Made by a program: the position numbers and the translations under genes. Shown in pieces: positions 40,346-56,472 of a DNA stretch of 64,000 nt; positions within the stretch are counted from its first letter, which is position 1; every line of letters begins with the position of its first letter. The stretch is taken from positions 1-64,000 of the forward strand of contig WGNB01000018.1 in assembly GCA_016124795.1 (NCBI GenBank). The letters are read 5' to 3'. This stretch comes from Rhodopseudomonas sp. GTDB lineage: Bacteria; Pseudomonadota; Alphaproteobacteria; Rhizobiales; Xanthobacteraceae. The notes under the pieces were generated by a model. It was not told the origin of the DNA and made no database searches. It saw only the letters and a program-made list of their open reading frames with translations.

Positions 40346-40947
40346 GACGCTTCGGCCACGGGAGACCCCGTCACCTCGTTGGCGACGGCGCGCATATCGC
40401 TCGCGATCCGCTTGCGGACATCGAAGATCGCCTGCTTGAGCACCCGACGGGCGCCTTGCTCGCCGTCCTTACCGACGGCGGCGGCAAGTTCGCCGGTACA
40501 CAACAGAATACGGTCGAGATCGGCGGCAATCTTACGGCCGAATTCGTCCTGGGCGGCGGAGACCTCAGCAGCGAGCACCAGCTTGCCGGTGCGTTCCTCG
40601 TATTCCAGCCGTTTGAGTTCGCCGGCGTAGAAGGCGTCGGTCGCCTTGGCGTCGCGGTAGGTGGGATCGCGCGATTCCGAGTCGCCGCCGCCGGATTTGG
40701 TTGCCGCGCCCGCTTCCTTCGCTGGATCGCCGACCTGGCCGACAGCGCGGTCATATTCGGCGATATTGACGAGCTTCGAGCGTCCCGGACCCGGCTTGGT
40801 GCCGAGCAACCCATCGGTTTCAAGCCGGGCGACCCGCTCCGAGATCGTCTGCTTTTTGACGCCCTTGCGCTTTGCCAGTGCGGAAATACTGAGCCAAAGC
40901 CCATTTTCCAGCAGGTCGCCCGACACCGTGTCAGGTGTCTGGTACAT
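40342..40947 (-). CDS. Terminase small subunit (Nu1-like)
   Basis: 201 residues. The N-terminal winged helix-turn-helix (LSISALAKRKGVKKQTISERVARLE) resembles lambda Nu1. The remainder is helical for oligomerisation and TerL contact (ELKRLEYEERTGKLVLAAEV). It recognises the packaging site. It precedes TerL and is the first of the head genes. Confidence 0.85.
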   Translation of the reverse strand: MYQTPDTVSGDLLENGLWLSISALAKRKGVKKQTISERVARLETDGLLGTKPGPGRSKLVNIAEYDRAVGQVGDPAKEAGAATKSGGGDSESRDPTYRDAKATDAFYAGELKRLEYEERTGKLVLAAEVSAAQDEFGRKIAADLDRILLCTGELAAAVGKDGEQGARRVLKQAIFDVRKRIASDMRAVANEVTGSPVAEAS

Positions 40948-41046
40948 GTGTCAGCCGTGTCAGGTCAACTTTTTTCGGTTGTCGCTAGCGCTTTTCCGGG
41001 CCCGTATCGGTCGCGAGGCATGGGGGGCCGGGGAAGGACCCGTGCG

Positions 41047-41628
41047 CTACCGGGCAGCTACCCCGAGGATACGGCCAACCTCATGGGCAACCCGGCCCGG
41101 CAAGAGCGCCAGTCCCGTCGCAATGAATGTTTCGGCGACCTCGGCGCTGACCATATCGGTCGGGATGAAGACCCCAGACCGCGCCCGCTTGAACATCGGC
41201 CGGCCATGGCCGGAGCCGATCCGTTCGAATACCTCACCGCCCATATGCAGGCCGACCCGGTTCGGAAACTGGCCGCCCTTGATGAACGTATTCGGGAATA
41301 CCCGCCTCTGCCCGCGCGGCGCGGCGCTGACACCGCGTTGCGTCTCGCGTGGCTTGAAGAACTTCAGTCGGACATTGCCGCCGCGCGCCTTGATCGAATA
41401 GACCAGCGCGCCGTAATTGGCATGCGTCGTGTGTGTTGCTGCCTTGATCACCCGATATGGCAGCCCGGTTTTCTCGGTCAGCGCCCGCCGCATCTTGGTG
41501 CGAGCGATATCGCCGGAATGGTTAAGCGCTCGCCGCACCGCGTCGGGCGTCCGGTTGCCGGCGGCTTTCATGTATTGTGCCAGCGCGGCTATCGGCGCGG
41601 CATCGAGATTGATCTCGACCAGGTCCAT
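41047..41628 (-). CDS. Minor tail protein Z-like
   Basis: 193 residues from MDLVEINLDAAPIAA at 41628. ARTKMRRALTEKTGLPYRVIKAA, YGALVYSIKARGGNVRLKFF and GQFPNRVGLHMGGEVFERIG follow the GpZ/tail-completion pattern. In this phage it lies upstream of the terminase instead of among tail genes, which is unusual. Confidence 0.75.
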   Translation of the reverse strand: MDLVEINLDAAPIAALAQYMKAAGNRTPDAVRRALNHSGDIARTKMRRALTEKTGLPYRVIKAATHTTHANYGALVYSIKARGGNVRLKFFKPRETQRGVSAAPRGQRRVFPNTFIKGGQFPNRVGLHMGGEVFERIGSGHGRPMFKRARSGVFIPTDMVSAEVAETFIATGLALLPGRVAHEVGRILGVAAR

Positions 41629-41629
41629 G

Positions 41630-41821
41630 CTACTTGCGCACAGCGCGGATCGCCGCAACGCGGGCCAGCGCCGCACGGCGCAAATCGCCGCTTCGAGCAT
41701 CCTCGGCCAAAGTCCGCGCCGCATGCGTCGCGGCCTTCACCGTTCCCGCGATATCGCCCTTGGCAAGCCGGGAGGTCATTTCGCGCAGATCGTCGGCGCG
41801 CTCCGAGCAACGGCAGGCCAT
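41630..41821 (-). CDS. Small helical protein before the GpZ-like gene
   Basis: 63 residues from MACRCSERADDLREMTSRL at 41821. Paired N-terminal cysteines (CRC) are followed by a mostly helical, Ala/Arg-rich sequence. The stop lies 1 bp before the next ATG, suggesting coupling. Similar small genes precede GpZ in related prophages. Function unknown. Confidence 0.6.
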   Translation of the reverse strand: MACRCSERADDLREMTSRLAKGDIAGTVKAATHAARTLAEDARSGDLRRAALARVAAIRAVRK

Positions 41822-41955
41822 AAACTTTAACCCTTTGGAAAACGATGCCTTGCGACAACAGCAGAGAACAGCCGCGCGCAAAACCATCATCGCGAATGAA
41901 ACGAGCCAGCCCGCCTTTGCGCGCGCTTCGCACTCCGAGTGGTTCGGATGTGGCC

Positions 41956-41973
41956 AGGGGTGTGGTTACCCCT
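41956..41973 (-). promoter_or_regulatory. Hairpin just after the phage nusG-like gene
   Basis: Perfect 6 bp inverted repeat AGGGGT/ACCCCT with a six-base loop, 13 bp downstream of the NusG-like stop. The late genes begin after it. It could be a weak attenuator or a recognition element for the antiterminator. There is no T-tract. Confidence 0.4.
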
Positions 41974-41986
41974 GTGGTTTCGCGCT

Positions 41987-42664
41987 TCACAGCTTTTCAA
42001 TATCGGCGATGGTCATGTCGGCCGGAACCGAGCCGCCGAACAGGTCGAGAAGCAATCTGATTCTCCCGGCGTCGTCGAGTCTTTCCAGCGTGCCTGTTGA
42101 TCCCTCGAATGCACCGGCCTTCGTAATGCGCACAGTCTCGCCGACCGCGAAAACATCAGAGGCCTTGATCGTGGCCGGAATTGCGCCGTTAATTTCGGAT
42201 GCCCGCAGGGTGGCGATGAAGTTATCGGATACCGGCGCCGGCAGATTATTCTCGCACAGCATTCCGCGAACACCGATGACCCGAAAAATATCGTGCCAGG
42301 GATCGGTAACCGGGTTGAAACGGACGAATTCATAACCGGGAAACATCGGCTCGATTTTCTCTTTGGCAAAGAGATGCCGCACCTTGCGTTGTTCGCGGCT
42401 AAGTTGGTTGGCGCGCGGCACGATCATCCGGCGCAACTTAACCGAATAGACCTCAAAACCCGCCTGTGCGATCTGCTTGGCGACGAAGCTGCTCTCTTCG
42501 GCGGCCTGCCGCTCGAACTTCGCGCCGACGCTGACAACATGCCAATGCCGCGCTGTATCATCGCCCGCCGCCCTCGGCGCAATGCGCCGTTCATCGGCAC
42601 GCGATGCAAGGTCGAGCGCCGAAAGCGCCGCTTGGCGCATCTTCAGATTGATTGATCCAGCCAT
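41987..42664 (-). CDS. Phage-encoded NusG paralogue, probable late antiterminator
   Basis: 225 residues. After an N-terminal extension (about 1-38) the NGN domain starts RHWHVVSVGAKFERQAAEE and includes EPMFPGYEFVRFN, matching host Nus[11 protein letters not shown]. The KOW domain is FAVGETVRITKAGAFEGSTG at about 169-188 and ends DIEKL, like host VEKI. The sequence is otherwise very divergent from host nusG in this window. It lies between replication genes and the late head operon, behind a structured 374 bp leader. A specialised RfaH/LoaP-type role on late transcription is inferred. Confidence 0.85.
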   Translation of the reverse strand: MAGSINLKMRQAALSALDLASRADERRIAPRAAGDDTARHWHVVSVGAKFERQAAEESSFVAKQIAQAGFEVYSVKLRRMIVPRANQLSREQRKVRHLFAKEKIEPMFPGYEFVRFNPVTDPWHDIFRVIGVRGMLCENNLPAPVSDNFIATLRASEINGAIPATIKASDVFAVGETVRITKAGAFEGSTGTLERLDDAGRIRLLLDLFGGSVPADMTIADIEKL

Positions 42665-42685
42665 CGTCAGTTTTCCCTTTCATCC

Positions 42686-42712
42686 GACCTTGGGGGAATT
42701 TCCCCTAAGGTC
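42686..42712. promoter_or_regulatory. 27 bp near-perfect palindrome upstream of the nusG-like gene
   Basis: Arms GACCTT-GGGGAA and TTCCCC-AAGGTC (13 nt each, one mismatch, one central base) lie 21 bp before the ATG. It could be an operator for a phage regulator or an mRNA hairpin that controls translation. Confidence 0.6.
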
Positions 42713-42854
42713 ATTCATCCGTTTTTGCTCACGGGAGCCGAACCGGGAGGCCTATGGGAGCCTCACCGGATATGCAACACCCTCACCACACCAACCAAAA
42801 CACGCGATAAACAAAGGCAAAAAGATGAGTCTTATGAATCACTTAATCAATCTA

Positions 42855-43034
42855 TGGGAGGGTAGGGAGGGTTTATGCGATATCAGCCTCGCGTGTGTGC
42901 GCGCGCCCGCGCCCGCATGTGAGTCCGACCCCGCAAAAACCCTCCCTTCCCTCCCACAACCCTCCCGCAGCCCTGTGCCGCAGGGCTTTCTGCAATTCAC
43001 CAACCCTCCCGTTTACGGGAGCTACGGGAGGGTT
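42855..43034. repeat. Cluster of GGGAGGGT/ACCCTCCC iterons with quadruplex motifs
   Basis: Six exact copies of GGGAGGGT or its complement (starting at 42856, 42865, 42939, 42959, 43003, 43026) and one partial copy lie in 180 bp. They form a 20+20 nt inverted repeat (42855-42874 / 42937-42956, one mismatch) and a perfect 11+11 bp inverted repeat (43002-43012 / 43024-43034). The tract gggagggtagggaggg is a canonical G-quadruplex motif, with a second on the other strand. A small hairpin lies at 42969-42987. The cluster fills the gap between the primase/helicase and nusG-like genes: a replication origin or a regulatory leader are both possible. Confidence 0.7.
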
Positions 43035-43038
43035 GACA

Positions 43039-45114
43039 TCAGAACGGCACCTCATCATCGCGCCGGTGCGAATCCGCGCGTGTTGATTCCTCACCGGAAA
43101 GTGGCCGGCCGAGATGATCGACGAAGTCGGAAACCTTTTTGGTGAGGCGAATGCCCATGAAGAACATCACGCTGATCTTGCGGGTCTCGATGCCCTTTTC
43201 CTTCATCACATTGGTGAAGCCGGTATGCTTCCATTCCGGCCCGCCCGTGGCTTTCGCCCAGGCGATGAACACCTCGTGCATGAGCGTCGACTGCACCTTG
43301 CCCTCCGGGTCCGGCTCGGTGCAGTCCACGAGGAAGCGACCGCACGGGTCGCTGTCCTCTCGATATTGCTTGGTTGCCGCCTCCGAGGCCTGCGACCGCA
43401 CCAGACCGTTCACGAGCCAACTGCGCAGGCCATCGAGCAGCACGTTGAGCACACCCGAGGCTTCGGCCCTGAGCTTGTCGTCAAGCTTCAGATCCCATTC
43501 CGAGCGCGGGATCACGACATCCCACGGCACCAGGTTCATGCGCCGCCAGATACCCTCGGTGGTGTCACCGATGCGGGGCTTGTGGTTCGCAGAGATGGTC
43601 AGCTTAAACTGCGGCAGGAACTCGAATTGCGATTTGTTCAGGTCGCGCGCCGATACCTTATCGCCGCCGGTGACCATCTTGATGAAGCCTTCGTCGAAGC
43701 GCGCGTTTTTCTGCGGTTCCGAAGCGGTCAGCAGGCGAACGCCCGGCAGCGCTGCGCGCTCCGGTGTCGGCGCCGAGGCGTTGCGCGTCGCGCCCTCGGC
43801 CAGGAAGGTCTCGATCGGCGTGGCGCGGGCATAGTCGCCGGCAACGTAAGTCGCGATGCGGGTTACGACGCCCTTGCCGTTGCCGCCAGCGCCGTGGAAC
43901 ACGACGAGCTGTTGCTCGGTGGCGTCCCCCGTCAGCGAATAGCCGAGCCAATCGATGATAAAACGACGATTGTCTTCGTCGGGCTGCGCCCGCTTCAGGA
44001 AGGCGTCGAAAACGGCGCAGCCGGCCCGCGGGTTATAATCCACCGGCGATATCTTGGTGATGAGATCGGCCGGGTCGTGCGGCTTAAAGCCGATCATGCC
44101 GGGCAGCGACTTGTCGACGAACAGCGTGCCGTTGTTGACGTTGATCATCCACGGGTCGGCGTCGAAGGCGTCGATCGACGTCGCCAGATAAGGCGCGGCG
44201 TGACCGTCGATCGGCGTCATCTTCGAATTCATCTCAGAGGCTTTGCCCCAATCCGCCAGCGCGCCCGCATCCGCGTGCAGGAACATCACCTTGAGCACGC
44301 GCTTGATCCGAGCCTCTTTCGCGGCCTTGGCCTTCCGCTTTTTCTCGACCTTGTCGGCAAATTCGGGATCGTCGGCGCTGTGGACCAAGTGCAGCCGGCC
44401 GGCGGCCTGGTCCTTTTTGGTTTTGTATAGCTTCTCGAAATCCTTCCGGGCCTTGGCGACCTCGCCCGGCTGAATGTCATGCTCCTTGCTCAGGTCGCGC
44501 GCGATATCGCGCAGCGCCCTCGCCTCATCCTGAATGGCGCGCACGGTCTCATGGCTGGCAATGCGCACGCGCGCGTCGGCGCCCTGGCGTGACCAACGTT
44601 TGCCGTCCCAGAAAAACCAGCCGAGCTCCTTCGACCATTTGAACTGATCGCCGAAGCGCTTGCGGAAGCGTTCGACGTTGCCAAGGTCGGTCATCGGCAG
44701 GCGGGCCAGTTCGCGATTGAGCGCATCGCGCCTCAACTCTTGTTCGCGGTGACGTTGTTCCGCCGCCGCTTCATCATCGATGTCGCCCCCCGCCCCCAAC
44801 GAGCCCTCAATTTCGGCTATCGCTCCCGAATGGGAGGGTGCGGAAATTTCACCGTCACGTGGGGGCGCGGGGGCGTCGGATGACGCGGGAGGGTTAGAAG
44901 GTTCTGGGTCCGCCTGGTCGGGGGGCGCGAGGGGTGACGCCATGTCGCCACGCGGCGCGCTATTCGCCGCGCCTTTCGGCGCGGCGGCGCGCCGCGTGCC
45001 ATTTGTCGACTTTCTCTCAGACTCGGCCGGCGCCGAGACAAGAACCGGCGCCACCGGCGGCCGCGCGCCGTCGACGATCGACAGAATGAGATCGATAGCG
45101 TCTTGCCTAATCAT
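43039..45114 (-). CDS. D5/P4-type primase-helicase (SF3)
   Basis: 691 residues. A disordered Pro/Ala-rich N-terminus (about 25-100) precedes a D5_N-type domain (about 270-400). The SF3 helicase has Walker A GAGGNGKG at 408-415, with SANHKPRIGDTTEGIWRRMNLVPW as motif C and sensor region. It unwinds DNA at the phage origin. It follows a CHC2/Toprim primase gene and is followed by the iteron cluster, which supports an origin nearby. Confidence 0.9.
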   Translation of the reverse strand: MIRQDAIDLILSIVDGARPPVAPVLVSAPAESERKSTNGTRRAAAPKGAANSAPRGDMASPLAPPDQADPEPSNPPASSDAPAPPRDGEISAPSHSGAIAEIEGSLGAGGDIDDEAAAEQRHREQELRRDALNRELARLPMTDLGNVERFRKRFGDQFKWSKELGWFFWDGKRWSRQGADARVRIASHETVRAIQDEARALRDIARDLSKEHDIQPGEVAKARKDFEKLYKTKKDQAAGRLHLVHSADDPEFADKVEKKRKAKAAKEARIKRVLKVMFLHADAGALADWGKASEMNSKMTPIDGHAAPYLATSIDAFDADPWMINVNNGTLFVDKSLPGMIGFKPHDPADLITKISPVDYNPRAGCAVFDAFLKRAQPDEDNRRFIIDWLGYSLTGDATEQQLVVFHGAGGNGKGVVTRIATYVAGDYARATPIETFLAEGATRNASAPTPERAALPGVRLLTASEPQKNARFDEGFIKMVTGGDKVSARDLNKSQFEFLPQFKLTISANHKPRIGDTTEGIWRRMNLVPWDVVIPRSEWDLKLDDKLRAEASGVLNVLLDGLRSWLVNGLVRSQASEAATKQYREDSDPCGRFLVDCTEPDPEGKVQSTLMHEVFIAWAKATGGPEWKHTGFTNVMKEKGIETRKISVMFFMGIRLTKKVSDFVDHLGRPLSGEESTRADSHRRDDEVPF

Positions 45115-45323
45115 TGTTCAGAATGCACAACGGGCCGATCCGCGATTGGATAGAGATCATCAAGGTCGAAGCCTGCCTCAATGATCAGCGCTTTCGCCGC
45201 AGCGACCTCGCCTTGCCATTCGGATAATTCACCTTCGGCGAATTGCAGCGTCAGTTCAGACTCGACAAGATGAAAGGCGAGGCTGCGGCACAAGCGTTCG
45301 ATTAAATCGGGTGAGTCCTTCAT
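45111..45323 (-). CDS. Small acidic protein before the primase-helicase
   Basis: 70 residues from MKDSPDLIERLCRS at 45323, with an ATGA overlap onto the helicase gene. Helical and acidic (ELTLQFAEGELSEWQGEVAAAKALI). Function unknown. Confidence 0.6.
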   Translation of the reverse strand: MKDSPDLIERLCRSLAFHLVESELTLQFAEGELSEWQGEVAAAKALIIEAGFDLDDLYPIADRPVVHSEQ

Positions 45324-45327
45324 CGTG

Positions 45328-45579
45328 TCATTCGCCCGCCGCCTGCATGCGCTCACACCGACGCGCGATGAAGTCAGCGCCGGCGTCGTCGGTCAGCTGA
45401 AGCTCAGAGGTCGCGAAGGCCTGATTATGCTTTCTGATTGCGTCAAGCTTTCTACCCTCACACGAACTGATCCAGTCGCAACTGGAGCATTCGGTGCGCG
45501 ACCAGCCGCTTTCGTAGGTCCATATATCGACGGCATCAACGCCGCATTTCGGACAGGGCTTCAAGCGCGGATAAGTCAT
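45328..45579 (-). CDS. Lar-like restriction-alleviation family protein
   Basis: 83 residues from MTYPRLKPCPKCGVDA at 45579. Two CxxC pairs (CPKC and CSSC) with the spacing of Lar-type zinc ribbons, followed by a helix. Lar of Rac modulates host restriction; here the role is inferred from the motif only. Confidence 0.7.
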   Translation of the reverse strand: MTYPRLKPCPKCGVDAVDIWTYESGWSRTECSSCDWISSCEGRKLDAIRKHNQAFATSELQLTDDAGADFIARRCERMQAAGE

Positions 45580-45887
45580 AGGGGGTCGATCCCCCACGCC
45601 ACAGCGTCGCGAAGCCAAGATGTCAGGGAAGTCCGATCGACAATCTTATTGATGCTATCGCGCAATTCTTCGACCGGACCCCGCCACTCGGCCTGCATCC
45701 ACTGACGCAAGTAAGCCCGCATGACGCCGATCTGGCTCGGCGTCATGTCCGATTCGTTCAGATACGCTTGAACTGCCGGCCTTAGAACGCCTGTTGTTTC
45801 GTTCATCCAATAGCCCGGCATGTTTCTAGAGCGCCCACAATTGGTCACTTTGCATTCTTCGCATCCGCAATTTGGTCCGTGGCCCAT
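45576..45887 (-). CDS. Small cysteine-rich phage protein
   Basis: 103 residues from MGHGPNCGCEECKVTNC at 45887. Four closely spaced cysteines suggest a zinc site; the remainder is helical (MTPSQIGVMRAYLRQWMQAEW). Its start touches the end of the primase gene. No family recognised. Confidence 0.6.
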   Translation of the reverse strand: MGHGPNCGCEECKVTNCGRSRNMPGYWMNETTGVLRPAVQAYLNESDMTPSQIGVMRAYLRQWMQAEWRGPVEELRDSINKIVDRTSLTSWLRDAVAWGIDPL

Positions 45888-47077
45888 CACGCCGCCTCCC
45901 TCAATAGATCGTCGAAGTCGCTTCCGTCCGGAGCCCAGGCCACCACGATCTCGCGGCCGGCCCGCATATACCGGTCGCCGGCGCGCGCCATCACGCATTG
46001 CGTCGAAAAGCGATCGGAGGTGGAATCGCCGAGCAGCACCAGGCGCCGCACTGTGTCCGGTACGTCGATCGCCGGCGCCAACAAATCCGCCGCGGGCCCC
46101 GGCACGCGCTTGACCCGCCCGGTTGGCGTCTTCGCCGTCGGATGTGGCACCGGCTCTTTCGCCTTGCCGGCAATGTTGCCGAGGTCGGCCGCCGACCAGA
46201 AGCCGATGGTCGACGGGTCCCGGGCAGCCCCATGCATCGCGGTCCAGATCGCCAGCACCTTCTCAATGCCCTCGCCCAGCACCAGCGTGTGCGGTTCAGG
46301 GCATGGCGTCAGTTCGATATGACCGCCCTTTTTCGAGCCGCGCATTTTCTTGGTGCCCAGGGCCTCGCCGGTCTTCGGATCGACGATCAGCGCCTTGCCC
46401 TTCGGCCGATCGAGATCGAACCAGGTGGTGTGAACGCCCGCGAAATGACCGTCGCGGCGGATGGCGCCGAGCAGCGCCGGGCCGGTATGGATCAACCGCG
46501 CGCGCGGCTTGTCGGGCACATAGAAGCGCGCCGCCGGGTCGAAGCGGAGCAGCACGTTGTCCGGGAAGTCGAGCCCGCGCGCCTGGCGCAGATAGTCCCG
46601 CGCCGGCTGAGCGGCCGGTTCGGACAGCGGGATGCCGTATTTGTAATAGAGGTCGTAAGCCTGCCCGCGCTCACGCTCGCGCCATTCATTTTGCTGCGCG
46701 TCTTGCGCGGCGGCGCGCGCCGCACGCTCGGCCTCGAGTCGCTTTTCCTCGGCCGGGTCGATCTGCCGCGTGCCGCCGAGGATCTCCACCACCTTTGAAA
46801 AATCGCGTCTCGGGTCGAGGCCGTGGCGCAATGCCACCAGCTTGAAGATGTCGCCGCCGTCGCCGCAGGTCGCGCAAACCCAGCCTTCGGCGTCACATTC
46901 GAAGCTGGTTGAATCGCGCGCGTCCGTCCGCAGCGAATGCAGCGGGCACGGCCCGGTGAAGCCGGCGCGTTTGAATTTCGATGAACCGGGGCGCAGGCTG
47001 ACCCAGGTCGCCGCCCACTTGCTGACCGGCTCGCGCGCGCGCAGTTCGTCGATTTGTGCGCGGCTAAAGGAACTCAT
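45887..47077 (-). CDS. CHC2-type zinc-finger/Toprim DNA primase
   Basis: 396 residues. The zinc finger CPLH...C...CATC at about 44-71 matches CHC2. The Toprim part contains HTLVLGEGIEKVLAIWTAMHG and RRLVLLGDSTSD, with the acidic residues of the fold. It synthesises primers for phage replication with the D5-type helicase. Its start lies 14 bp inside the end of the reverse transcriptase gene, so the DGR and replication genes are translationally linked. Confidence 0.88.
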   Translation of the reverse strand: MSSFSRAQIDELRAREPVSKWAATWVSLRPGSSKFKRAGFTGPCPLHSLRTDARDSTSFECDAEGWVCATCGDGGDIFKLVALRHGLDPRRDFSKVVEILGGTRQIDPAEEKRLEAERAARAAAQDAQQNEWRERERGQAYDLYYKYGIPLSEPAAQPARDYLRQARGLDFPDNVLLRFDPAARFYVPDKPRARLIHTGPALLGAIRRDGHFAGVHTTWFDLDRPKGKALIVDPKTGEALGTKKMRGSKKGGHIELTPCPEPHTLVLGEGIEKVLAIWTAMHGAARDPSTIGFWSAADLGNIAGKAKEPVPHPTAKTPTGRVKRVPGPAADLLAPAIDVPDTVRRLVLLGDSTSDRFSTQCVMARAGDRYMRAGREIVVAWAPDGSDFDDLLREAA

Positions 47078-48074
47078 GCGATTGCCCCTCGATTGCCGCC
47101 ATCCCCAGGCTGCGGATCAAGTTCGCGCTGTCCGCCCATCCGGCATGGCCAAGCCACGCGCCGAGAAACGTGCGAAGGCGATCGCCGTCGCCGGCGGCAC
47201 GATAAGCCGCGATCTTGCGCCGCGCCCGTACAACGCTGTCGCGCCGCAAAAGCTTATGCGTCGACCAGATCCGATAGCCGAGGAAATTGATCCCGCGCGT
47301 CGCCGGCGCGATTGACCATTTTGAGAAGCGCAGGCCGAGCTGGCCGGCCGCGAAGCTTTCAATGCTGGCCTTCACCGCCCGCAGGTGGCCGCTGCTGTGG
47401 CCGAGCACCACCAGATCATCCATATATCGATACCAGTAGTCCTCACCGAGCGTCTGTTGCAGATGCCGGTCCAGCGTGGCGCCGGTGTAGAGGTTAGCGA
47501 ACACTTGCGACGTCAGGCTGCCGATCGAAATGCCAATGCCGGCGCGCGGCACCATCGCCTCGATCAGCTTCAACGTCGCCCGGCAGGAAATTTTGGCCTC
47601 GATCAGGTTCCACAAGGTGGCGCGCTCGATCGACGCGAAATAGCGCGAGAAGTCCGTCTTAAGGACAGAGACCGCGCCGCGCTTTTCGAGGCGTCGCAGA
47701 TCGGACTGTAGAGCGACGACGCCGGCATGGGTGCCCTTGCCCTTGCGACAGGCAAAGGCGCGCGGCAACAAGGCGCGGTCGATAATCGGCCCGATGACGA
47801 GGCACAGCGCCTGCTGCGCCACGCGATCGCGAAACGGCAAAGCCGTGATCAACCGCCGCTTCGGATCGAGAATATAGAATTCATGTGGTGCGCCTGGCTG
47901 ATAAGAGCCATCCGCCATCTCGACCGCCAGCCTGTCGAGGTTTAGCGCGTCTTCTTCCTTAAAATGCAGATAGCCGGCCGTCAGCCGTTTGCCCTGGGCG
48001 GTCAGGCGATAGGCTTGCCGCATCGTCACCGGTGACGTGATGTGGCCGATCAGATTGCGATAACGTTTGGTCAT
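47064..48074 (-). CDS. Diversity-generating retroelement reverse transcriptase
   Basis: 336 residues from MTKRYRNLIGHITSP at 48074. Motif A is LKTDFSRYFASI (Asp141), the catalytic box is YRYMDD (215-220), and GISIGSLTSQVFANLY (181-196) replaces the usual QGxxxSP of other reverse transcriptases, a hallmark of DGR enzymes. No nuclease or maturase domain follows. It copies the adjacent template repeat into adenine-mutagenised cDNA. It lies 216 bp after the TR and after an Avd-like gene. Confidence 0.95.
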   Translation of the reverse strand: MTKRYRNLIGHITSPVTMRQAYRLTAQGKRLTAGYLHFKEEDALNLDRLAVEMADGSYQPGAPHEFYILDPKRRLITALPFRDRVAQQALCLVIGPIIDRALLPRAFACRKGKGTHAGVVALQSDLRRLEKRGAVSVLKTDFSRYFASIERATLWNLIEAKISCRATLKLIEAMVPRAGIGISIGSLTSQVFANLYTGATLDRHLQQTLGEDYWYRYMDDLVVLGHSSGHLRAVKASIESFAAGQLGLRFSKWSIAPATRGINFLGYRIWSTHKLLRRDSVVRARRKIAAYRAAGDGDRLRTFLGAWLGHAGWADSANLIRSLGMAAIEGQSHEFL

Positions 48075-48215
48075 GAAAGTTCCGAATAAATCGCCAGCCG
48101 CGGGTCTCGACAGGTCGAGGTCGCAACCTCGCCCACTACGCCCCGTTCTGCCGGACCGTGAAATGTGTTCGCCGAAGCGGGACAAGTGGGCTGACCACCG
48201 ACCTTGATCGTTTGT

Positions 48216-48234
48216 CGGGGGCGTCGCGCCCCCG
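48216..48234 (-). promoter_or_regulatory. Hairpin in the TR-RT spacer
   Basis: Perfect 8 bp GC stem (CGGGGGCG/CGCCCCCG) with a three-base loop in the 216 bp between template repeat and reverse transcriptase. In the Bordetella phage DGR the spacer RNA folds and primes cDNA synthesis, so this may be part of that structure. I see no gene in the spacer. Confidence 0.5.
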
Positions 48235-48290
48235 GTGACCGGCCGGCGCGACCGTGACCGACGCCGAGCCCTAAGCCGATAATTCCGATC

Positions 48291-48413
48291 GTCACTGCGG
48301 CCGCGCGCACCCAAGTTCTCGTTCGAGTTGTCGGGCCAGTTGTCGACGTTTGCCTGGCGCGAGCCGGCGTTGTCGTCGTTCCACCAGGAACCGCCGAAGA
48401 TGGACGGACGCGG
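48291..48413 (-). repeat. DGR template repeat (TR)
   Basis: 123 bp matching the 3' ends of both variable-protein genes. On the coding strand it has 24 adenines; 16 are changed in at least one VR. It would encode PRPSIFGGSWWNDD...NLGARGRSD and is enriched in AAC codons (seven), as is typical of TRs. The flanks diverge sharply from the VR flanks after GTGAC, the IMH*/IMH difference. It lies 8 bp after the Avd stop. Confidence 0.96.
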
Positions 48414-48421
48414 CTGCATCA

Positions 48422-48838
48422 TTACCCCTCTTGCCCCATCGCACGGGCGGCGACGAAGCCCCGTCCATGCGAATTTTGTAGCTTGTGCTGCCAGGCATTG
48501 AGCATCCCGCCCGGCTCCGACAGCAGCGCCAGCGCGACGCCGTGTTGTTTGGGGGTCACGACGCGGACGTCCGGCAGCACAAGAAAGCGCAGGTAGGACC
48601 GCAAGGTCGCGAACTCGGCATCGACGCCGTAGAGCCGGGATACCTGTTGCGACTTCGCGGCGTGATAGAGGCCGCCGATGGGTCTGAACAACGCAGCCAG
48701 CACGGCATCGCGAAGGACGCCGTGCGCGCGCGGGCTGCGTTGCAGGATCGGGTAAAGGTAGCGCACAAAGGCCTCATACTTTTCAACGATCGCCAGAGCA
48801 TCGGTCGAAGTGTGCTGATCTCTGGCGGTCATGCGCAT
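48422..48838 (-). CDS. avd: DGR accessory variability determinant (Avd-like)
   Basis: 138 residues from ATG 48838; a TTG at 48847 or the ATG at 48832 are alternatives. It is an all-helical four-helix-bundle candidate. SRLYGVDAEFATLRSYLRFL and VRVVTPKQHGVALALLSEPGGMLNAWQHKL follow the Avd pattern (LRLA...KQ...L.E.G.mLG.W). Avd pentamers bind the RT and TR RNA and are required for mutagenic cDNA synthesis in Bordetella phage. It sits directly between variable protein 1 and the TR. Confidence 0.85.
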   Translation of the reverse strand: MRMTARDQHTSTDALAIVEKYEAFVRYLYPILQRSPRAHGVLRDAVLAALFRPIGGLYHAAKSQQVSRLYGVDAEFATLRSYLRFLVLPDVRVVTPKQHGVALALLSEPGGMLNAWQHKLQNSHGRGFVAARAMGQEG

Positions 48839-48849
48839 CGGTCTCAAAC

Positions 48850-48869
48850 GCCGTCGCTGTCGCGACGGC
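48850..48869 (-). repeat. Target-site hairpin after VR1
   Basis: Perfect 8 bp stem GCCGTCGC/GCGACGGC with loop GACA on the coding strand, 17 bp beyond VR1. The loop fits the GRNA consensus of DGR target hairpins or cruciforms that stimulate retrohoming. It abuts the stop codon of variable protein 1. No equivalent follows the TR at that spacing. Confidence 0.85.
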
Positions 48870-49780
48870 TAGGCAAGTTGCAGGTGGTCACTGCGGCCGC
48901 GCGCACCCAAGTACTCGTTCGAGTAGAAGGGCCAGACGCCGACGTGGGCCCGGCGCGAGCCGGCGTTGCCGTCGTTCCACCAGGAACCGCCGAAGAAGGA
49001 CGGACGCGGCGTGTCGGGGTCGCCGTCATGACCCCAGACCCAGAGATTGCCGGTCGCCTGCATCAGGCCGAACCGGCTAGTGCGCACTGTGTCGAGCTGG
49101 GTGGTTTTCGGATCGTCATCGCGCGACGTCCGCTCGGTCACGCCGAAGGCCGCCGCGAAGAACTCGTCGATCGACAACAACCCCTTGCCGTGGTGCTTCA
49201 TCACCGCGGCGGCGGTCTCATAATCAAGTTTGCTATAGTTGCCGCCGGCCAGGTTCTGCGGCGGGCTGTTACCATCGGCGATCTCGACGCCGAACTTGCT
49301 GGTGCCATCGGTCAGATGATTGACGCCGAGCAAATAGATATCCGCCCAGAACGGCGCGCGAGTCGTGTCGACCAGCACCATGCCGCGCGGATCGGCGCAG
49401 GCTGGCCGAAAAGCGATATCCCACACCGAATAGGGGTTGATCGCCGGCGTGTCATCGCCACCGGCCCGCGCCGTAGCGTCGCCGCCTGGCGCGAAGTGGA
49501 AACCGCCCAGAACCGTCGGATCGTCGAGGTCCGGCTTACCGGTCAACATCTCAGCGACCGCGCTGCCATCGCGCACGACGACCACATAGTCCGCGCCCGG
49601 CTGTAGCGCCAGACTGCTCGCCACCGGCGCTTCGTCGTCAAAGACGGCGTCGCCGAAGCGGGTGCCGGCGCGGATCGCGATTGTATCGCGACCGGTGACG
49701 ACAAGTGCCGGCGCGCCTGGATCATGCTTCACCATCGCTGGTGTCGAATTGCCGGCGATGCCGCTGGTCGATGTGTTCAT
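48869..49780 (-). CDS. DGR variable protein 1 (FGE-sulfatase/C-type-lectin-like)
   Basis: 303 residues. An N-terminal beta-rich region (about 25-90, TGRDTIAIRAGTRFG ... GADYVVVV) is followed by the conserved core FWADIYLLGVNHLTDGTS and KHHGKGLLSIDEFFAAAFGVTE. The C-terminal lectin-like fold has NLWVWGHDGDP and GGSWW. Residues 258-298 are encoded by VR1, and the changed positions are surface-type residues (N->Y, H, V; D->F, G). No signal peptide. It begins the DGR module directly before avd. A ligand-binding display protein is inferred; its location in the virion or the host is unknown. Confidence 0.93.
   Translation of the reverse strand: MNTSTSGIAGNSTPAMVKHDPGAPALVVTGRDTIAIRAGTRFGDAVFDDEAPVASSLALQPGADYVVVVRDGSAVAEMLTGKPDLDDPTVLGGFHFAPGGDATARAGGDDTPAINPYSVWDIAFRPACADPRGMVLVDTTRAPFWADIYLLGVNHLTDGTSKFGVEIADGNSPPQNLAGGNYSKLDYETAAAVMKHHGKGLLSIDEFFAAAFGVTERTSRDDDPKTTQLDTVRTSRFGLMQATGNLWVWGHDGDPDTPRPSFFGGSWWNDGNAGSRRAHVGVWPFYSNEYLGARGRSDHLQLA
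48887..49009 (-). repeat. DGR variable repeat 1 (VR1)
   Basis: 123 bp aligned to the TR without gaps. It has 12 substitutions, 11 at TR adenines and one at a TR guanine (GAC codon changed to TTC). The downstream initiation-of-mutagenic-homing region, GCGCGCGGCCGCAGTGACCA, is shared with VR2 and differs from the TR after GTGAC. Confidence 0.95.
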
Positions 49781-49828
49781 GTGTCATGCCCTTTCAGAAA
49801 AAGCCGGCGATCCGCGCCGGCGCGGCCT

Positions 49829-50212
49829 TCAAGAATCCGTTTGAAGTGCGTTAATTGCCGAGATCGCGGCTGGAAACGGCGCTGACGACCAGCGCCACTG
49901 CACGTGCCGCCACTGGAACCAGGAGCGAAAAGATCGTGTTGGCAGGCCCGGCACTGCTGTGACCGTCATCCGCGCCAGGAAGTCGCAACCTGAAAGCCCT
50001 GTGAGGCCCTGCGGCCTTTGCCAGCTCTCGCAGGCGATCGCGGTGGCCGTCAGCTGTTGCCAGCAAAGCCGCTGGGTCAGTTCGCCGAGCATCGCGTCAA
50101 GCGCCGCACCGGCCGGCGCCGGGCCGGTGCTGCGTGTGCTCGACGCACACCAGCGCTGAGCAACAAGCGTCAGTTCTTTCGCCGCTACGGCCAGGTCACG
50201 CGATTGCGTCAT
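49829..50212 (-). CDS. Hypothetical protein upstream of variable protein 1
   Basis: 127 residues, translationally coupled to the gene before it (ATGA). The first two thirds (LVAQRWCASSTRST, LCWQQLTATAIACESWQ) look coding. The Trp/Arg-rich end (FQWRHVQWRW) looks odd, and another frame at 49851-50066 gives a smoother hydrophobic C-terminus, so a frameshift is possible. No family recognised. Confidence 0.5.
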   Translation of the reverse strand: MTQSRDLAVAAKELTLVAQRWCASSTRSTGPAPAGAALDAMLGELTQRLCWQQLTATAIACESWQRPQGLTGLSGCDFLARMTVTAVPGLPTRSFRSWFQWRHVQWRWSSAPFPAAISAINALQTDS

Positions 50213-50544
50213 CGCCGGCCGCCCTTCTCAATCAACAGGGCCTTGATCGCGTCGCTGGCCTCAACGCGCACGACAATGGTCAGTATCTTGTTGATCTCGG
50301 CCAGCCGACGGCGGGCCATGTCGGGATCGGCTGGGCCGCCCTCCGCCTTGATTGCGGTGACAACGCGCAATGACGCTTCTGCGCGCGTCGCCTCGGACAC
50401 CATGCGCTCGACCAGCGTCTTATAGGTAATCGGATCGCAAGCGGGCGGCGTCGCGCCCGTGAGCCATTCGAAGGCGCAGCGCTCACAGATCATCAGGTCA
50501 TCGCGGCGCTCAACGCCGCACGAAGCCGGCGGAGAATGGGTCAC
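50209..50544 (-). CDS. Small phage protein with N-terminal zinc-like cysteines
   Basis: 111 residues from a GTG overlapping the previous stop (GTGA). CGVERRDDLMICERCAFEWLTGATPPAC has three to four cysteines that may bind zinc. A helical C-terminus follows, RRRLAEINKILTIVVRVEASDAIKAL. Part of the leftward early operon. Function unknown. Confidence 0.6.
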   Translation of the reverse strand: MTHSPPASCGVERRDDLMICERCAFEWLTGATPPACDPITYKTLVERMVSEATRAEASLRVVTAIKAEGGPADPDMARRRLAEINKILTIVVRVEASDAIKALLIEKGGRR

Positions 50545-50954
50545 GGCCGTTTCTCCATCGCGAACGACAGCGCCGGGTCGTATTCCCAGACCACGCACAG
50601 GCCGCGACTCTCCATGGCTTTCAAAAGCGCGGCGGCCTGCGCCATGCAGCCGGACACGGCGTGGCCGTCCGTCCGGGTTTCGTAATGGCAATGGCCGTCT
50701 TTCGGCGCGCAAAGGCCATTCGTCAGATCGGTGGCGCAGCGATGCGACGCCAGGGCGATCTGCGCGCGCTTGCGATGGAGCGCGCGCAATTCCGCGCCGT
50801 CGGCGCAAGCGAACGATTTCGGCGCGCGAACATGCTCGGCCGCGCCGAGGGCCTGCCGGATCATCTGCCGCAATAATTCGTCCGTGCGCGGCATAGCGCG
50901 CGACGCTCCGAACAATTCGGAAAATGCGGCTTCAACCTCTTGCTCGGTCGGCAT
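50541..50954 (-). CDS. Cysteine/histidine-containing early protein, unknown
   Basis: 137 residues from MPTEQEVEAAFSELFG at 50954, chosen because GGAG lies nine bases upstream. A helical N-terminus is followed by HRCATDLTNGLCAPKDGHCHYETR. Other starts (50967 or 50999) lack a ribosome binding site. No family recognised. Confidence 0.6.
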   Translation of the reverse strand: MPTEQEVEAAFSELFGASRAMPRTDELLRQMIRQALGAAEHVRAPKSFACADGAELRALHRKRAQIALASHRCATDLTNGLCAPKDGHCHYETRTDGHAVSGCMAQAAALLKAMESRGLCVVWEYDPALSFAMEKRP

Positions 50955-51038
50955 CGGACAAATCTCCATCGTGGCGCGAAGCGGGATCGCGCGAAGCATC
51001 TCGGAACGGTTAAGGAAGGCGCTTGAGCGCCGGCCGGA

Positions 51039-51326
51039 TCAGGCCAGCAGATTGAAGGCGGCCGCCTCCATCTCACTGAACGTCAAGGCGGCCTTGTCGC
51101 GCTCGGCGGCCTGGACCGCGTTGTAGCAATCCATGGCCATCTCACGCGCCTTGGTCAGCATCGTCATGGCTTCCGCCAGGGCGGCGCGGCGCGCGGCGCA
51201 GGCATCGATCGCCATTTGCATCGGGGTCGGCTCCGGTTTGACCACTGTCTCGATCTTCGCGGCTGCCTTGAGGTCGGCCTTGGCCGGTGCGGTTTTGGAT
51301 TTGGACATCGAAGCTCTCCGGTTCAT
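51039..51326 (-). CDS. Small helical early protein
   Basis: 95 residues. The Lys/Ala-rich N-terminus (SKSKTAPAKADLKAAAKIE) is followed by a helical region (AIDACAARRAALAEAMTMLTKAREMAMD). The start at 51326 overlaps the preceding stop (ATGA). Function unknown. Confidence 0.6.
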   Translation of the reverse strand: MNRRASMSKSKTAPAKADLKAAAKIETVVKPEPTPMQMAIDACAARRAALAEAMTMLTKAREMAMDCYNAVQAAERDKAALTFSEMEAAAFNLLA

Positions 51327-51592
51327 CGATCAGGGGACGCGGTGGGCACTGGCATCTGGGGAATCGCGTCGACGCTGGGCAACAGCGCGGCGGTCGGCCG
51401 AGCCGCACGCGCACAAACGAACATGCGCCGGAAATCGCCGCCGAAGGCCGGCACGATCACGTTGTCCGCGATCGTCATGTGGGGGTTGAGCTGCTGGACC
51501 CTCTGCGGCGCGGCGGCGAAGCGCGCCACGCGCACGATATTGGCGGTGTCCGACGCCATGCCTTCACAAGCCACCGGTGCGCGCTTCATCAT
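51323..51592 (-). CDS. Hypothetical early protein
   Basis: 89 residues coupled on both sides by four-base overlaps. It contains ASDTANIVRVARFAAAPQRV and AFGGDFRRMFVCARAARP. No recognisable motif; the tight overlaps argue it is translated. Confidence 0.5.
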   Translation of the reverse strand: MMKRAPVACEGMASDTANIVRVARFAAAPQRVQQLNPHMTIADNVIVPAFGGDFRRMFVCARAARPTAALLPSVDAIPQMPVPTASPDR

Positions 51593-51753
51593 GCCGCCTC
51601 CCGCTGCTTTACCGCCGGCCGCGCCATCAGCACCGCGTCAGGAGCAATGTCCGCAATCGACCAGCCGTTGAGCAGATGGGCTTCGACGTCGTCATTCGGG
51701 ACCCAGACGCCGCGCTTGCGGCCGAGGTCGTGTTTGTCGGCGCGCGTTGTCAT
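51589..51753 (-). CDS. 54-residue early protein
   Basis: Starts MTTRADKHDLGRKRGVWVPN and includes DDVEAHLLNGWSIADIAPDA, resembling short helix-turn-helix-like or DNA-associated peptides. It overlaps both neighbours (ATGA), so it is probably real despite its size. Confidence 0.55.
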   Translation of the reverse strand: MTTRADKHDLGRKRGVWVPNDDVEAHLLNGWSIADIAPDAVLMARPAVKQREAA

Positions 51754-53459
51754 TCCGCCGCCTCGCTGGTTTGTTCACGCCGCAGAAACGCCGGGAACGT
51801 GAGATCGTCGTCGTCAGGAACAGGGGCGGACTCGGCGTCGATCGGCGTCGGCGAGGTAATGATTTCCGCCTTCTCCGGTTCGGCGTCGTTTCCGCCCCTG
51901 TCGGCTGCCGGGGGCACGGCAGCCGGTTCCGCGGGAGGTTCATCCGCGGTCGACTGGATTTCTTCGCGCAGATCACGCGTCTTGCGAGTGCCCGGCTTTT
52001 TCCGGACTTCGCCAAGAAGCTCGCTCTCGGCTGCCCGCGCAACAGCCGGCGCGAACTTGCCAGCCTGGTCGCCGTGGCAATCCCATTTGTCGTTGAGGCC
52101 GCCGCGCGAGAACAGTTCGAAATAGCGCGCCGCCGGGCTCAATTCCTCGACCAGCGCATAGAAGGCATCCGGCTTGCGCGAGTCCTCGCGCACCTCCCAG
52201 CCATCGCCCCGCCAGTCCGTCGTCTGGTTGGTCAGGTTGATTACCGGCGCGCCGCGCGTCGCGATGATGCAATGCTCGGTCTTGCCGCGCAGCACCTGCC
52301 CGCGCCCCATCTTGTTCTTCGCCCAGGTGCCCATCGTCGAATGCGTTTCGAAGCCTATCGCCTTCAACAAGATGAAGGCCTGATCGATGTGATGGTTGGT
52401 CGTCCAGAACCAGATGACGAGGTCGGGACCAAGCAAGGCCTGGAATTCTTCCGACTGGAACAGCTTGCAGCCTTCCGCGATCGACATTTCCGGATAATCG
52501 CGCATCGCCCGGCCGCGCGCGTCGATGTCGGCCTGGTCGGCGTCCTTTTCCGCCGGCCAAGGGAAATCAATAACGCCGACGCCGTAAGGACCGTGCATCG
52601 GCAGCCCCGGCGCGGCTTCGCGCAGCGCCTTTGTCTGCTTGATGATTTGCAGTCGCTTGAACGGACCGTTGACCTTGCCGGTCCGGTCCATGTCGTCCTT
52701 GAGCTTGCCGAATTGTTCCGGATCGGCGTCGGCGGCCGCGACCACTTCCTTGATCTTGTCGATCGTCCGGCGATCGAAACCGGTCGCCCGCGCGGCATGA
52801 TCGGCGGCGCGGCCCTTTTGCGCCGGCGCGGCCGCTTTGCCGGCATGCTGACGCGCCCGCGCCAACGTCGATAGCTGTCGATTGACCTCGTCGCTGATCG
52901 TGGCCGCCTCGCTCGGTGTGAAATCCTTGCGCTTGGCGTTTTCGTCCCATTCGCCGGCGATGATTGAATCCACCGTGATTTCGCGAACGGGAATCGGCTG
53001 GTCTTTAAACTGGCTCAAGGGCCAGGCCCGCAATCGCCGTTCGCCGGCAATCAGCGTGTCATCGGGCATGATCGCAATGGCCTGAAGCAAGCCGCCACGG
53101 TCGTTGATCGAGTCGGCGAGATCCTGAAGATTGCCGAAGTCCTTGCGGTGCCGTTTGCCGATCCTGATTTCGTCCGGCCAGCGGGTATCGACCGGGCGCG
53201 GCGGAAATCCGGTCGGCCGCACCAAAGCCACCTTGCGTTCGATCCGCGCCGTCATCGCGTCGGTCTGGGCCGGCGTGTTGCGGTCCAGCTTGGCCACGGG
53301 CGCGGCCACAAATGTTGGTGCTATGGCTTTTGCCTTCGTCGCGCGCCCCGCCACCTTCGCGGTCTTGACAGCCTTCGGCTTGCCGACTTTGGTGGCCGGC
53401 TTGTTCGCCGGCTTTTTGGCCTGCTTCGCAACCACCTTCTTCTTTTCGCGCCCGACCAT
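51750..53459 (-). CDS. ParB-like nuclease domain fused to MT-A70 adenine methyltransferase
   Basis: 569 residues from MVGREKKKVVAKQ at 53459. A lysine/alanine-rich tail (1-50) precedes a ParB N-terminal-type domain (about 95-150, with DSINDRGGLLQAI and GERRLRAW). A helical linker leads to an MT-A70-like N6-adenine methyltransferase with the DPPW-type motif as DFPW at 298-301 and SRKPDAFYALVEELSP...RYFELFSR downstream. It may modify phage DNA to evade restriction or regulate early genes. It lies at the head of the early operon. Confidence 0.88.
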   Translation of the reverse strand: MVGREKKKVVAKQAKKPANKPATKVGKPKAVKTAKVAGRATKAKAIAPTFVAAPVAKLDRNTPAQTDAMTARIERKVALVRPTGFPPRPVDTRWPDEIRIGKRHRKDFGNLQDLADSINDRGGLLQAIAIMPDDTLIAGERRLRAWPLSQFKDQPIPVREITVDSIIAGEWDENAKRKDFTPSEAATISDEVNRQLSTLARARQHAGKAAAPAQKGRAADHAARATGFDRRTIDKIKEVVAAADADPEQFGKLKDDMDRTGKVNGPFKRLQIIKQTKALREAAPGLPMHGPYGVGVIDFPWPAEKDADQADIDARGRAMRDYPEMSIAEGCKLFQSEEFQALLGPDLVIWFWTTNHHIDQAFILLKAIGFETHSTMGTWAKNKMGRGQVLRGKTEHCIIATRGAPVINLTNQTTDWRGDGWEVREDSRKPDAFYALVEELSPAARYFELFSRGGLNDKWDCHGDQAGKFAPAVARAAESELLGEVRKKPGTRKTRDLREEIQSTADEPPAEPAAVPPAADRGGNDAEPEKAEIITSPTPIDAESAPVPDDDDLTFPAFLRREQTSEAAE

Positions 53460-53836
53460 TATTCGCCTCCCCGCCTGTGCTTGAAATCGTGATCGCTGGT
53501 CGATGGCCGCGCATTCGCGGCGTATAGATGCGCGTCGAGGCTGTCCGCGATGACGTGCTCCCGCACGACGGCGGCGACAGTCATTGCCCGCTTGATCTCG
53601 CGCGCATCGCCGAGAGGCCCGTGTCGCTCCAGCTTGCGCAGCATGGTCAGCAACAGCAGCGTCCATTCGTTGACAAAGGCGCGCGGGCCATCATGCAGCC
53701 GCGCCGCGAACCGCGAAGCCTCCTCGAACAGCAGTTCGATGCGGTCGAGCCGGCGCATATCACCAGTCGCACGATCGAGCGTCTTGTCCGAGACTTCGAG
53801 GATGCGCGAAAGAAGATCAGCCGCAGGCGCCGTCAT
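53459..53836 (-). CDS. Early operon protein, helical, unknown
   Basis: 125 residues, predicted largely helical (LSRILEVSDKTLDRATGDMRRLDRIELLFEEASRF). Its stop overlaps the ParB-methyltransferase start (TAATG). No family recognised. Confidence 0.6.
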   Translation of the reverse strand: MTAPAADLLSRILEVSDKTLDRATGDMRRLDRIELLFEEASRFAARLHDGPRAFVNEWTLLLLTMLRKLERHGPLGDAREIKRAMTVAAVVREHVIADSLDAHLYAANARPSTSDHDFKHRRGGE

Positions 53837-53992
53837 GGCTGGGTCCTTTCAGATCCAGCGCCTTGCGCGGCATCGCGCCAGAAGCGATCATTGTGGCCTT
53901 TGTCTTCACCGGACAATTGCAACTTGAACAGAGGCGCAAAATGAAAGGCGGGCCGACGAACATCGACGCGCCCAACAGAAGGACTTGGAAAG

Positions 53993-54304
53993 ATGAGGTT
54001 GGTATTCGGAACGAAAGAAATCGCGCTATGGGAAGCGGCGCTGGACAACCAGCCCCGCGCGATTTCCGAAAGCGAATGGGCCGCGGCGACGATTCCGCAA
54101 ATCGAGGCGTTCAAGCCGAGCATATTGAACGCCGGGATATTGTTTCGCTTTCGAACCCGCGACCATGGCGATTTCGATTTTGAAATCAACCCGGTCGCGG
54201 CGCGGCACCTCGCCATTAGCATCGTTAACATGGGCCAGGAGGTTGGTTGGTTGAACGCCGAGGGCAACATCATTTTGCCTCCCCGGCCGCCGTTAGATGC
54301 CTGA
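53993..54304 (+). CDS. Hypothetical phage protein, rightward
   Basis: 103 residues. It opens MRLVFGTKEIALWEAALDNQ and contains RFRTRDHGDFDFEINPVAARHLA, a well-formed mixed sequence. It lies on the opposite strand to the surrounding early genes and its end overlaps an antisense ORF. AAGGA lies upstream of the start. Function unknown. Confidence 0.6.
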   Translation: MRLVFGTKEIALWEAALDNQPRAISESEWAAATIPQIEAFKPSILNAGILFRFRTRDHGDFDFEINPVAARHLAISIVNMGQEVGWLNAEGNIILPPRPPLDA

Positions 54305-54461
54305 TGAAATCCGGGGGGAAAGCCTCGCCGCGATCAGGCTCTCGCGCCTGGAGCATTTTGACGCCGGCGAGACGCGGTCTCGCCGGTGGTGCTGACGCCG
54401 GGCAAACCGGCTCGTCGGCAATGCGACGATCAGCGCTGCGGTCGGTGCGTTCGATAGTCAT
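54270..54461 (-). CDS. Small ORF antisense to the previous gene's end
   Basis: 63 residues from MTIERTDRSADRR. It overlaps the rightward gene by 35 bp. It is preceded by a 13-codon ORF (MKRAREALERDGL) whose start and stop overlap the neighbours as ATGA, as if coupled to the membrane protein gene. Sequence is proline/arginine-rich. It may not be real. Confidence 0.35.
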   Translation of the reverse strand: MTIERTDRSADRRIADEPVCPASAPPARPRLAGVKMLQAREPDRGEAFPPDFIRHLTAAGEAK

Positions 54462-54495
54462 AGACCATCCCTTTCCAAAGCTTCGCGCGCGCGCT

Positions 54496-54681
54496 TCATG
54501 CTGCGATCCTTTCGACGATAACGACGGTCGCGGCGAACATGGCCCAGGCCAGAGCCAGCACAATCCAGCCAATCGGAAGCCGCACGACAGATGGTCGAAC
54601 GACAAAGCCGAGCGACGCAGGAATCGGCGGCAAAGCGCGGGCCGGAATGAAGGGGGGCGTGGTGCGATAAGGCATAGCCAT
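54496..54681 (-). CDS. Small membrane protein coupled to variable protein 2
   Basis: About 61 residues. A proline-rich N-terminus (PYRTTPPFIPARALPPIPAS) is followed by one transmembrane helix (about 38-60, IGWIVLALAWAMFAATVVIV). Its start (ATG 54681, or GTG at 54684) overlaps the stop of variable protein 2, so the two are probably made together. That raises the possibility that variable protein 2 acts at the membrane. Confidence 0.6.
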   Translation of the reverse strand: MAMPYRTTPPFIPARALPPIPASLGFVVRPSVVRLPIGWIVLALAWAMFAATVVIVERIAA

Positions 54682-55631: not shown

Positions 55632-55732
55632 GATGTGGCCTCCGAGTTGTTGAGGAATGCGGAGCGCGCCATCGGGTCGTTGCCGCGCATCGACGCGCCG
55701 CGATGGTGAAACTTCGCGGCGCTACCACCCAT
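55628..55732 (-). CDS. 34-residue ORF before variable protein 2
   Basis: Opens MGGSAAKFHHRGASMRGN and ends with an ATGA overlap onto variable protein 2. It may be a leader or small accessory protein coupled to it. Short, so reality is uncertain. Confidence 0.35.
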   Translation of the reverse strand: MGGSAAKFHHRGASMRGNDPMARSAFLNNSEATS

Positions 55733-55790
55733 GCGGGCGGCTACGAAAACAGCCTGAAGTTGAAGTAAAATCGACCGAAAATAAAATTCT

Positions 55791-55813
55791 AGCGTAAAGC
55801 GGAACTTCACGCT
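55791..55813. promoter_or_regulatory. Inverted repeat in the VP2 promoter region
   Basis: Arms AGCGTAAAG and CTTCACGCT (one mismatch) are separated by five bases. They lie in the non-coding gap (55733-55864) between the leftward VP2 operon and a rightward gene. On the minus strand TAGAAT follows as a possible -10. An operator is plausible; binding protein unknown. Confidence 0.45.
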
Positions 55814-55864
55814 GTAATTGCACAACCACTGGTTTTGCGTGCAAGTAAAGAGGAATGCAGCGTT

Positions 55865-56179: not shown

Positions 56180-56181
56180 CC

Positions 56182-56463: not shown

Positions 56464-56472
56464 TGCCAAATG

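Follow-up and report, generated by a model that had tools for sequence, protein, structure and literature searches.

A BPP-1-type diversity-generating retroelement with two Mtd-type target genes in a Rhodopseudomonas prophage

The diversity-generating retroelement (DGR) of phage BPP-1, with its mtd, avd, template repeat (TR) and brt (NC_005357), represents a well-studied type, and DGRs with more than one target have also been described. PMC6642488 reports multiple variable repeats (VRs) in 271 of 948 non-redundant DGRs, and PMC10743442 cites about 13% of DGR cassettes with two targets and describes the phage DGRs nd4 and nd12, in each of which one TR likewise serves two targets in one phage. 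Here we analyze a 64,000-nucleotide stretch of DNA from Rhodopseudomonas sp. (contig WGNB01000018.1, positions 1 to 64,000; hereafter, the window), the minus strand of which carries a complete BPP-1-type DGR composed of a target gene, avd, TR, spacer RNA and reverse transcriptase (RT). The order target-avd-TR-RT, on one strand, is the same as in BPP-1, which has a single Mtd target, whereas the window element has two, and we consider it very probable that it is a BPP-1-type DGR residing in a temperate contractile-tailed prophage and serving two Mtd-type target genes. Since multi-target DGRs have already been published, the element belongs to a known kind; it is a complete yet ordinary DGR example, and its chief point of interest is the second, distant target gene. 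What we show directly is which parts the element has, its adenine signature, that both target sites are equipped, and to which families the components belong.

The TR (48291..48413, minus strand) is 123 bp long and contains 24 adenines, as stated in the original prediction, which was made from the sequence of the window. VR1 (48887..49009, minus strand), near the 3′ end of target gene 1, differs from the TR at 12 positions, 11 of which correspond to TR adenines (hypergeometric p = 1.7e-8), and VR2 (54729..54851, minus strand), near the 3′ end of target gene 2, differs at 13 positions, all at TR adenines (p = 2.0e-11), so that the previously given count of 24 out of 25 differences at TR adenines was reproduced exactly. 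At least one VR is altered at 16 of the 24 adenines, and outside the adenines the TR and the VRs are identical except for one base. As a control, we compared the two target genes over their bodies, which precede the VRs, and where 24 of 116 mismatches over 497 aligned positions fall on target 1 adenines, with adenine making up 88 of the 497 target 1 bases in the same aligned body; because the gene bodies show no comparable bias, the adenine bias belongs to the repeat and not to the genes. A TR search of the whole 5.1-Mb genome yielded three matches, namely the TR itself, VR1 and VR2, and no further VRs elsewhere. In the TR codons, no stop can be reached through changes at adenines, and the TR could encode 4.5e13 protein variants if all adenines vary. 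The BPP-1 DGR exhibits A-specific TR/VR changes as well, with 17 of 24 adenines in the BPP-1 record (L067 in our numbering of loci).

Target gene 1 (48869..49780, minus strand; 303 aa) and target gene 2 (54681..55631, minus strand; 316 aa) both code for Mtd homologues, and are paralogous to each other, with 65% identity over the matched part, as had been anticipated for the variable gene. The coordinates originally assigned to the element, 47064-49780, do cover the RT, TR, avd and target 1 and omit the second target. In phmmer searches, solved Mtd structures were matched with E-values of 6.1e-54 (target 1) and 1.5e-48 (target 2), and the PHROG tail protein family with 9.7e-80 and 7.6e-79, respectively; against Pfam mtd_2nd, with its cut-off of 24.6 bits, target 1 scored above it (29 bits) and target 2 just below (22.7 bits). 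The target is 42% identical to BPP-1 Mtd, and both window targets are shorter at the N terminus, with homology starting from Mtd residue 56 or 65. The VRs lie within the last fifth of each gene, starting at 85% and 82% of target length, at the 3′ ends of targets whose sequence homology to solved Mtd makes them putative C-type lectin (ligand-binding) proteins, in line with the definition of DGRs.

Each VR is followed on the minus strand by a hairpin with a perfect stem, of 8 bp with the loop GACA after VR1 (48850..48869) and of 9 bp with the loop GGCA after VR2 (54691..54712); in contrast, no hairpin follows the TR. For phage DGR targets, PMC3240598 describes hairpins with GC-rich stems 7-10 bp long and loops of four bases that read GRNA, and this published form is found after both VRs, just as a GRNA-loop hairpin follows the VR of BPP-1. 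Among all VRs scored for the strict form, it was present at 43 of 90 (the two in the window included), at none of 71 TR ends and in none of 1800 shuffled stretches. Where the 3′ part common to all three repeats ends, CACCTG follows in both VRs and GATCGG in the TR, a contrast like that between the initiation of mutagenic homing (IMH) site and IMH* of BPP-1.

The RT gene (47064..48074, minus strand; 336 aa), recognized by phmmer, tblastn, PHROG and phylogeny, contains the GISIGSLTSQ and YMDD motifs noted earlier. It matches the BPP-1 RT chain 8ub7_A with a phmmer E-value of 4.2e-103, BPP-1 brt with 51.9% identity over 95% of its length (tblastn), and the PHROG reverse transcriptase family with 3.1e-101. 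An RT phylogeny, named beforehand as a test of the assignment, was built from the window RT, 22 other DGR RTs drawn from our RT search (among them L127, which gave no TR/VR pair in our scan, and L145, which gave only doubtful ones), five group II intron RTs and five retron RTs. It places the window RT within the DGR group (support 97/97), apart from the group II intron and retron enzymes, and constraining it to group II RTs was rejected (p-AU 0.0004). No second RT was found by search of the genome. The 452-aa open reading frame (ORF) at 47064-48422 exceeds the enzyme in length: similarity to BPP-1 Brt sets in only at the inner Met (48072-48074), and the stretch upstream of this Met consists of spacer RNA and TR that happen to be in an open frame.

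The 144-base spacer between TR and RT (48093..48236, minus strand) matches the Rfam family RF03022 (Phage_DGR) with 66.2 bits, passing the gathering score of 50. Of 20 relatives scanned, 19 have it too; the exception, L048, has only 9 bases upstream of its RT. By analogy with BPP-1, we take this spacer to be the cDNA-priming region. The accessory variability determinant gene, avd (48422..48847, minus strand), encodes 141 aa from a TTG start, with an ATG a few codons further in, and its product is homologous to BPP-1 Avd: it scores 99.4 bits against NCBIfam NF033474 (cut-off 80) and 79 bits against Pfam bAvd (cut-off 40), and matches the PDB entries for Avd and Bbp7 with E-values of 2e-20 and 3e-20. 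The Avd family was found in 13 of 149 genomes of the bacterial family, six of them over the cut-off, with the host genome counted in both figures. The frames of RT, avd and both targets are open. Thus, the original prediction of a DGR, including an Avd-like gene near the RT, is upheld, and the Mtd type of both targets, the Avd homology, the spacer RNA and the hairpins behind the VRs all agree with it.

To place the element among its relatives, we used the best 80 of 280 viral loci from an RT search together with 29 genome loci, and recovered a TR/VR pair in 70 and 25 of them, respectively. These loci were clustered at 99% identity into 95 groups, of which 44 form a close set, with RTs at least 66% identical to that of the window, and 51 a distant set. 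Flanking sequences were limited and many loci short, so that the two-target counts are lower bounds. Within the flanks, 17 of the 44 close groups have two VR-bearing targets, 22 have one, and in five none was found; in addition, L010 (with L096) and L012 (with L087) each have a remote second VR-bearing target on the same contig, with 16 adenine changes and no others and with 11 adenine changes and one other, respectively, bringing the total to at least 19 of 44 close groups in which one TR has two such targets. In the distant set, 42 of 51 groups have one target within the flanks, seven have none, and two (L142 and L145) have three VR-like matches; no Mtd-type locus with two targets was found among the 51 groups, within the flanks covered, L142 and L145 being counted separately since they gave no Mtd match by tblastn. 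L142 is an Achromobacter contig on which the three VR-like stretches are packed into less than 500 bases (6468-6952), with a single 542-aa frame holding two of the three; they may represent an internal target duplication or an assembly fault.

The Hyphomicrobiales DGR loci and related viral contigs (L004-L046, L050, L120-L126) share the cassette of the window, with RTs 66-82% identical to it, and the position of the second target varies from locus to locus. In 12 of the 19 two-target groups it is in tandem, with its VR 1.8-2.1 kb upstream of the RT, and in the other seven it lies elsewhere, at -3.3, -3.4, -5.2, +4.1 and about -12.5 kb, or in inverted orientation at -7.3 and about -13 kb; in the window, VR2 is at -6.8 kb from the RT and 5.8 kb from VR1. 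Pooled changes in relatives amount to 639 at adenines and 35 others in 56 VRs of the closer loci, and, across the 48 VRs of the distant loci, to 585 at adenines and 24 others, figures that lean towards DGRs because the TR/VR finder forgives changes at adenines and keeps pairs with up to three other changes; the TR/VR count in the window and its gene-body control are independent of this tolerance.

A phylogeny of the targets, from which the VR, targets below 250 aa and the redundant loci L036, L043, L045, L123 and L124 were left out, pairs target 1 of the window with that of L004 (100/98) and places target 2 elsewhere, and a constraint joining the two window targets was not rejected (p-AU 0.208), so that these two may be either old or recent duplicates. 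The proximal and distal targets of L035 form a sister pair (100/96), whereas distal targets of different phages group together in L013/L015 (100/100) and L034/L046 (100/98); this contrast suggests that phages acquired, or retained, two targets on more than one occasion. In L013/L015 and in L034/L046/L126/L039/L044, proximal and distal targets tend to group with their counterparts from other phages and not with one another, with several branches weakly supported.

Natural variation in the VRs could be followed by comparing near-identical relatives, which bears on one of the two outcomes that the original prediction had named as refuting it. In L057/L058, 14 of 119 VR positions differ, 13 of them at TR adenines, in comparison with 19 of 6121 positions outside; the corresponding figures are 14 of 69 (11 at TR adenines) versus 11 of 2867 in L055/L056, 7 of 117 (all 7) versus 326 of 9740 in L049/L051, 18 of 126 (15) versus 376 of 11374 in L066/L069, and 11 of 79 (all 11) versus 55 of 2176 in L072/L077. 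The pairs L068/L069, L072/L078 and L072/L079 repeat two of those listed, as L066/L068 and L077/L078/L079 are alike. The VR substitutions therefore fall mostly at TR adenines, so that neither refuting outcome, substitutions spread away from TR adenines or an RT outside the DGR clade, was observed, and since the VRs have changed more than their surroundings, the wider family is active in nature. Nine other VR-covering pairs showed no VR difference, with at most one difference overall. The near-identical pairs with two targets (L035/L036, L042/L043, L044/L045, and L041 versus L042 and L043) showed no VR difference, and say little because at most one base differs over their whole aligned length.

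The DGR lies inside a prophage of about 48 kb (apparently 12183..60549), as had been proposed, delimited at both ends by a 17-bp direct repeat that constitutes the putative att site. The right copy covers the 3′ end of a tRNA-Tyr gene (60534-60618), next to the integrase gene (59210-60463), and the left copy is found 117 bases past a tRNA-Gly gene (11993-12066). The prophage also codes for an S24-type repressor (56513-57280), terminase, portal, sheath, baseplate and endolysin; the presence of sheath and baseplate genes indicates a contractile tail, and in having a sheath gene and such a tail the prophage is unlike BPP-1. The cassette with target 1 is flanked by a ParB/MT-A70 gene on one side and a primase-like gene on the other, and the neighbours of target 2 are the ParB/MT-A70 gene and the repressor gene. 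The ParB/MT-A70 gene (51750-53666) encodes a 638-aa protein matching a ParB N-terminal domain, under the cut-off, and an MT-A70 methyltransferase, and some other loci, L005 and L020, have relatives of it beside their DGR. These two loci share the window arrangement, in which the ParB/MT-A70 gene lies upstream of the cassette and genes of primase-like and D5 type lie downstream; in many other loci the ParB/MT-A70, primase-like and D5-type genes were unmatched within the limited flanks. Apart from the DGR, an inverted repeat with 49-nt arms, 78% complementary and separated by a 4-nt gap, occurs at 42855-42956, between an ORF that ends at 42664 and another that starts at 43039.

Several observations weigh against a BPP-1-type DGR that serves two receptor-binding targets. 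Both targets are situated in the early/replication stretch of the prophage and not near its tail genes, unlike mtd of BPP-1, which adjoins a putative tail fibre gene, and the role of the window targets in the virion is less certain for that reason. The strict-form hairpin is absent at 47 of the 90 VRs scored. The single non-adenine difference, G to T in VR1, is opposite TR position 48332; such a change is not unusual, given that non-adenine changes are reported for 379 of 850 VRs of one set in PMC6642488. Finally, of the eight adenines changed in both VRs, five carry the identical new base (TR positions 48401, 48373, 48341, 48340 and 48329), compared with about 2.7 expected by our own arithmetic if bases are equal and independent; shared history or selection is possible, with numbers too small to distinguish this from chance.

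Could the same arrangement have come about without a working retroelement? Plain gene duplication and divergence, or gene conversion, would account for two paralogous targets with 65% identity over the matched part, but not for 24 of 25 differences falling at one base of one copy next to unbiased gene bodies, nor for the spacer RNA, Avd and DGR-type RT next to them. The bias towards one base, together with its polarity, refutes this explanation, to which we attach practically no probability. Nearly as implausible is the translation of the TR as the N-terminal part of the RT, through the 452-aa ORF that is open across the TR in the VR frame. The RT frame is open through the TR in 46 of 71 loci, the window included, and coincides with the VR frame in 49 of 96, somewhat above one in three, yet in the other 25 of 71 a stop interrupts the frame, either where the TR ends or between TR and RT, the frames mismatch in 47 of 96, and Brt homology begins at the inner Met. 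A TR-RT fusion protein was rejected because stops and frames vary among relatives.

The element might instead be dead, with VRs that bear the imprint of past mutagenesis and an RT, Avd or prophage that is no longer functional. No match to the target 1 copy was found in the other 59 of the 60 relatives searched, so that a recent change in the lineage would not be visible. However, RT, avd and both targets have stayed open, the spacer RNA scores above its threshold, the TR and VRs agree at all but one base outside the adenines, and the prophage keeps its integrase, repressor and structural genes, making decay unlikely. We assign a similarly low likelihood, if anything a shade lower, to the view that only target 1 works, with target 2 either a relic or subject to far rarer diversification. 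The VR of target 2 is 5.8 kb away, in a different region of the phage, and its Mtd domain match is weaker and below the Pfam cut-off; on the other hand, VR2 has the purer signature (13 of 13) and the longer perfect hairpin, with the same IMH end and an open frame, and two-target loci are common in close relatives, some with a remote second target. The reading of a BPP-1-type DGR with two equipped targets is therefore the one we favor.

By analogy with BPP-1, the TR-spacer RNA would be copied into cDNA by the RT together with Avd, with random bases inserted opposite TR adenines, and the cDNA would replace the 3′ end of either Mtd-type receptor-binding protein gene, each target being recognized through its own IMH and hairpin. 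The RT is presumably active in this prophage, and the homology of both Mtd-type proteins suggests that they may be present on the virion and may choose receptors, in which case the phage population would carry two kinds of variable receptor-binding tip. We tentatively propose, as a possibility rather than a probability, that one TR diversifies two separate Mtd paralogues in parallel, yielding two independently variable or mixed receptor-binding trimers, and that this is a lasting trait of a Hyphomicrobiales phage clade and not a passing duplication. The targets of nd4 and nd12 differ from each other in topology, comprising a tentaclin and a second protein (PMC10743442), whereas those of the window are Mtd paralogues. 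A phage clade with two Mtd paralogues under a single TR may be less described; our searches of open-licence PMC papers brought up no account of Hyphomicrobiales phages built in this way, and we make no claim to a first report.

The BPP-1 type being well studied, our understanding of DGRs is unchanged by this element. PMC12875486 raises the possibility that a single DGR acts on its two target genes at unequal rates, and the window element, because it is complete for the testable published BPP-1 landmarks and has two equipped targets, offers a natural test of differing rates at two targets under one DGR. It also lends itself to asking what benefit two variable tips bring to a phage.

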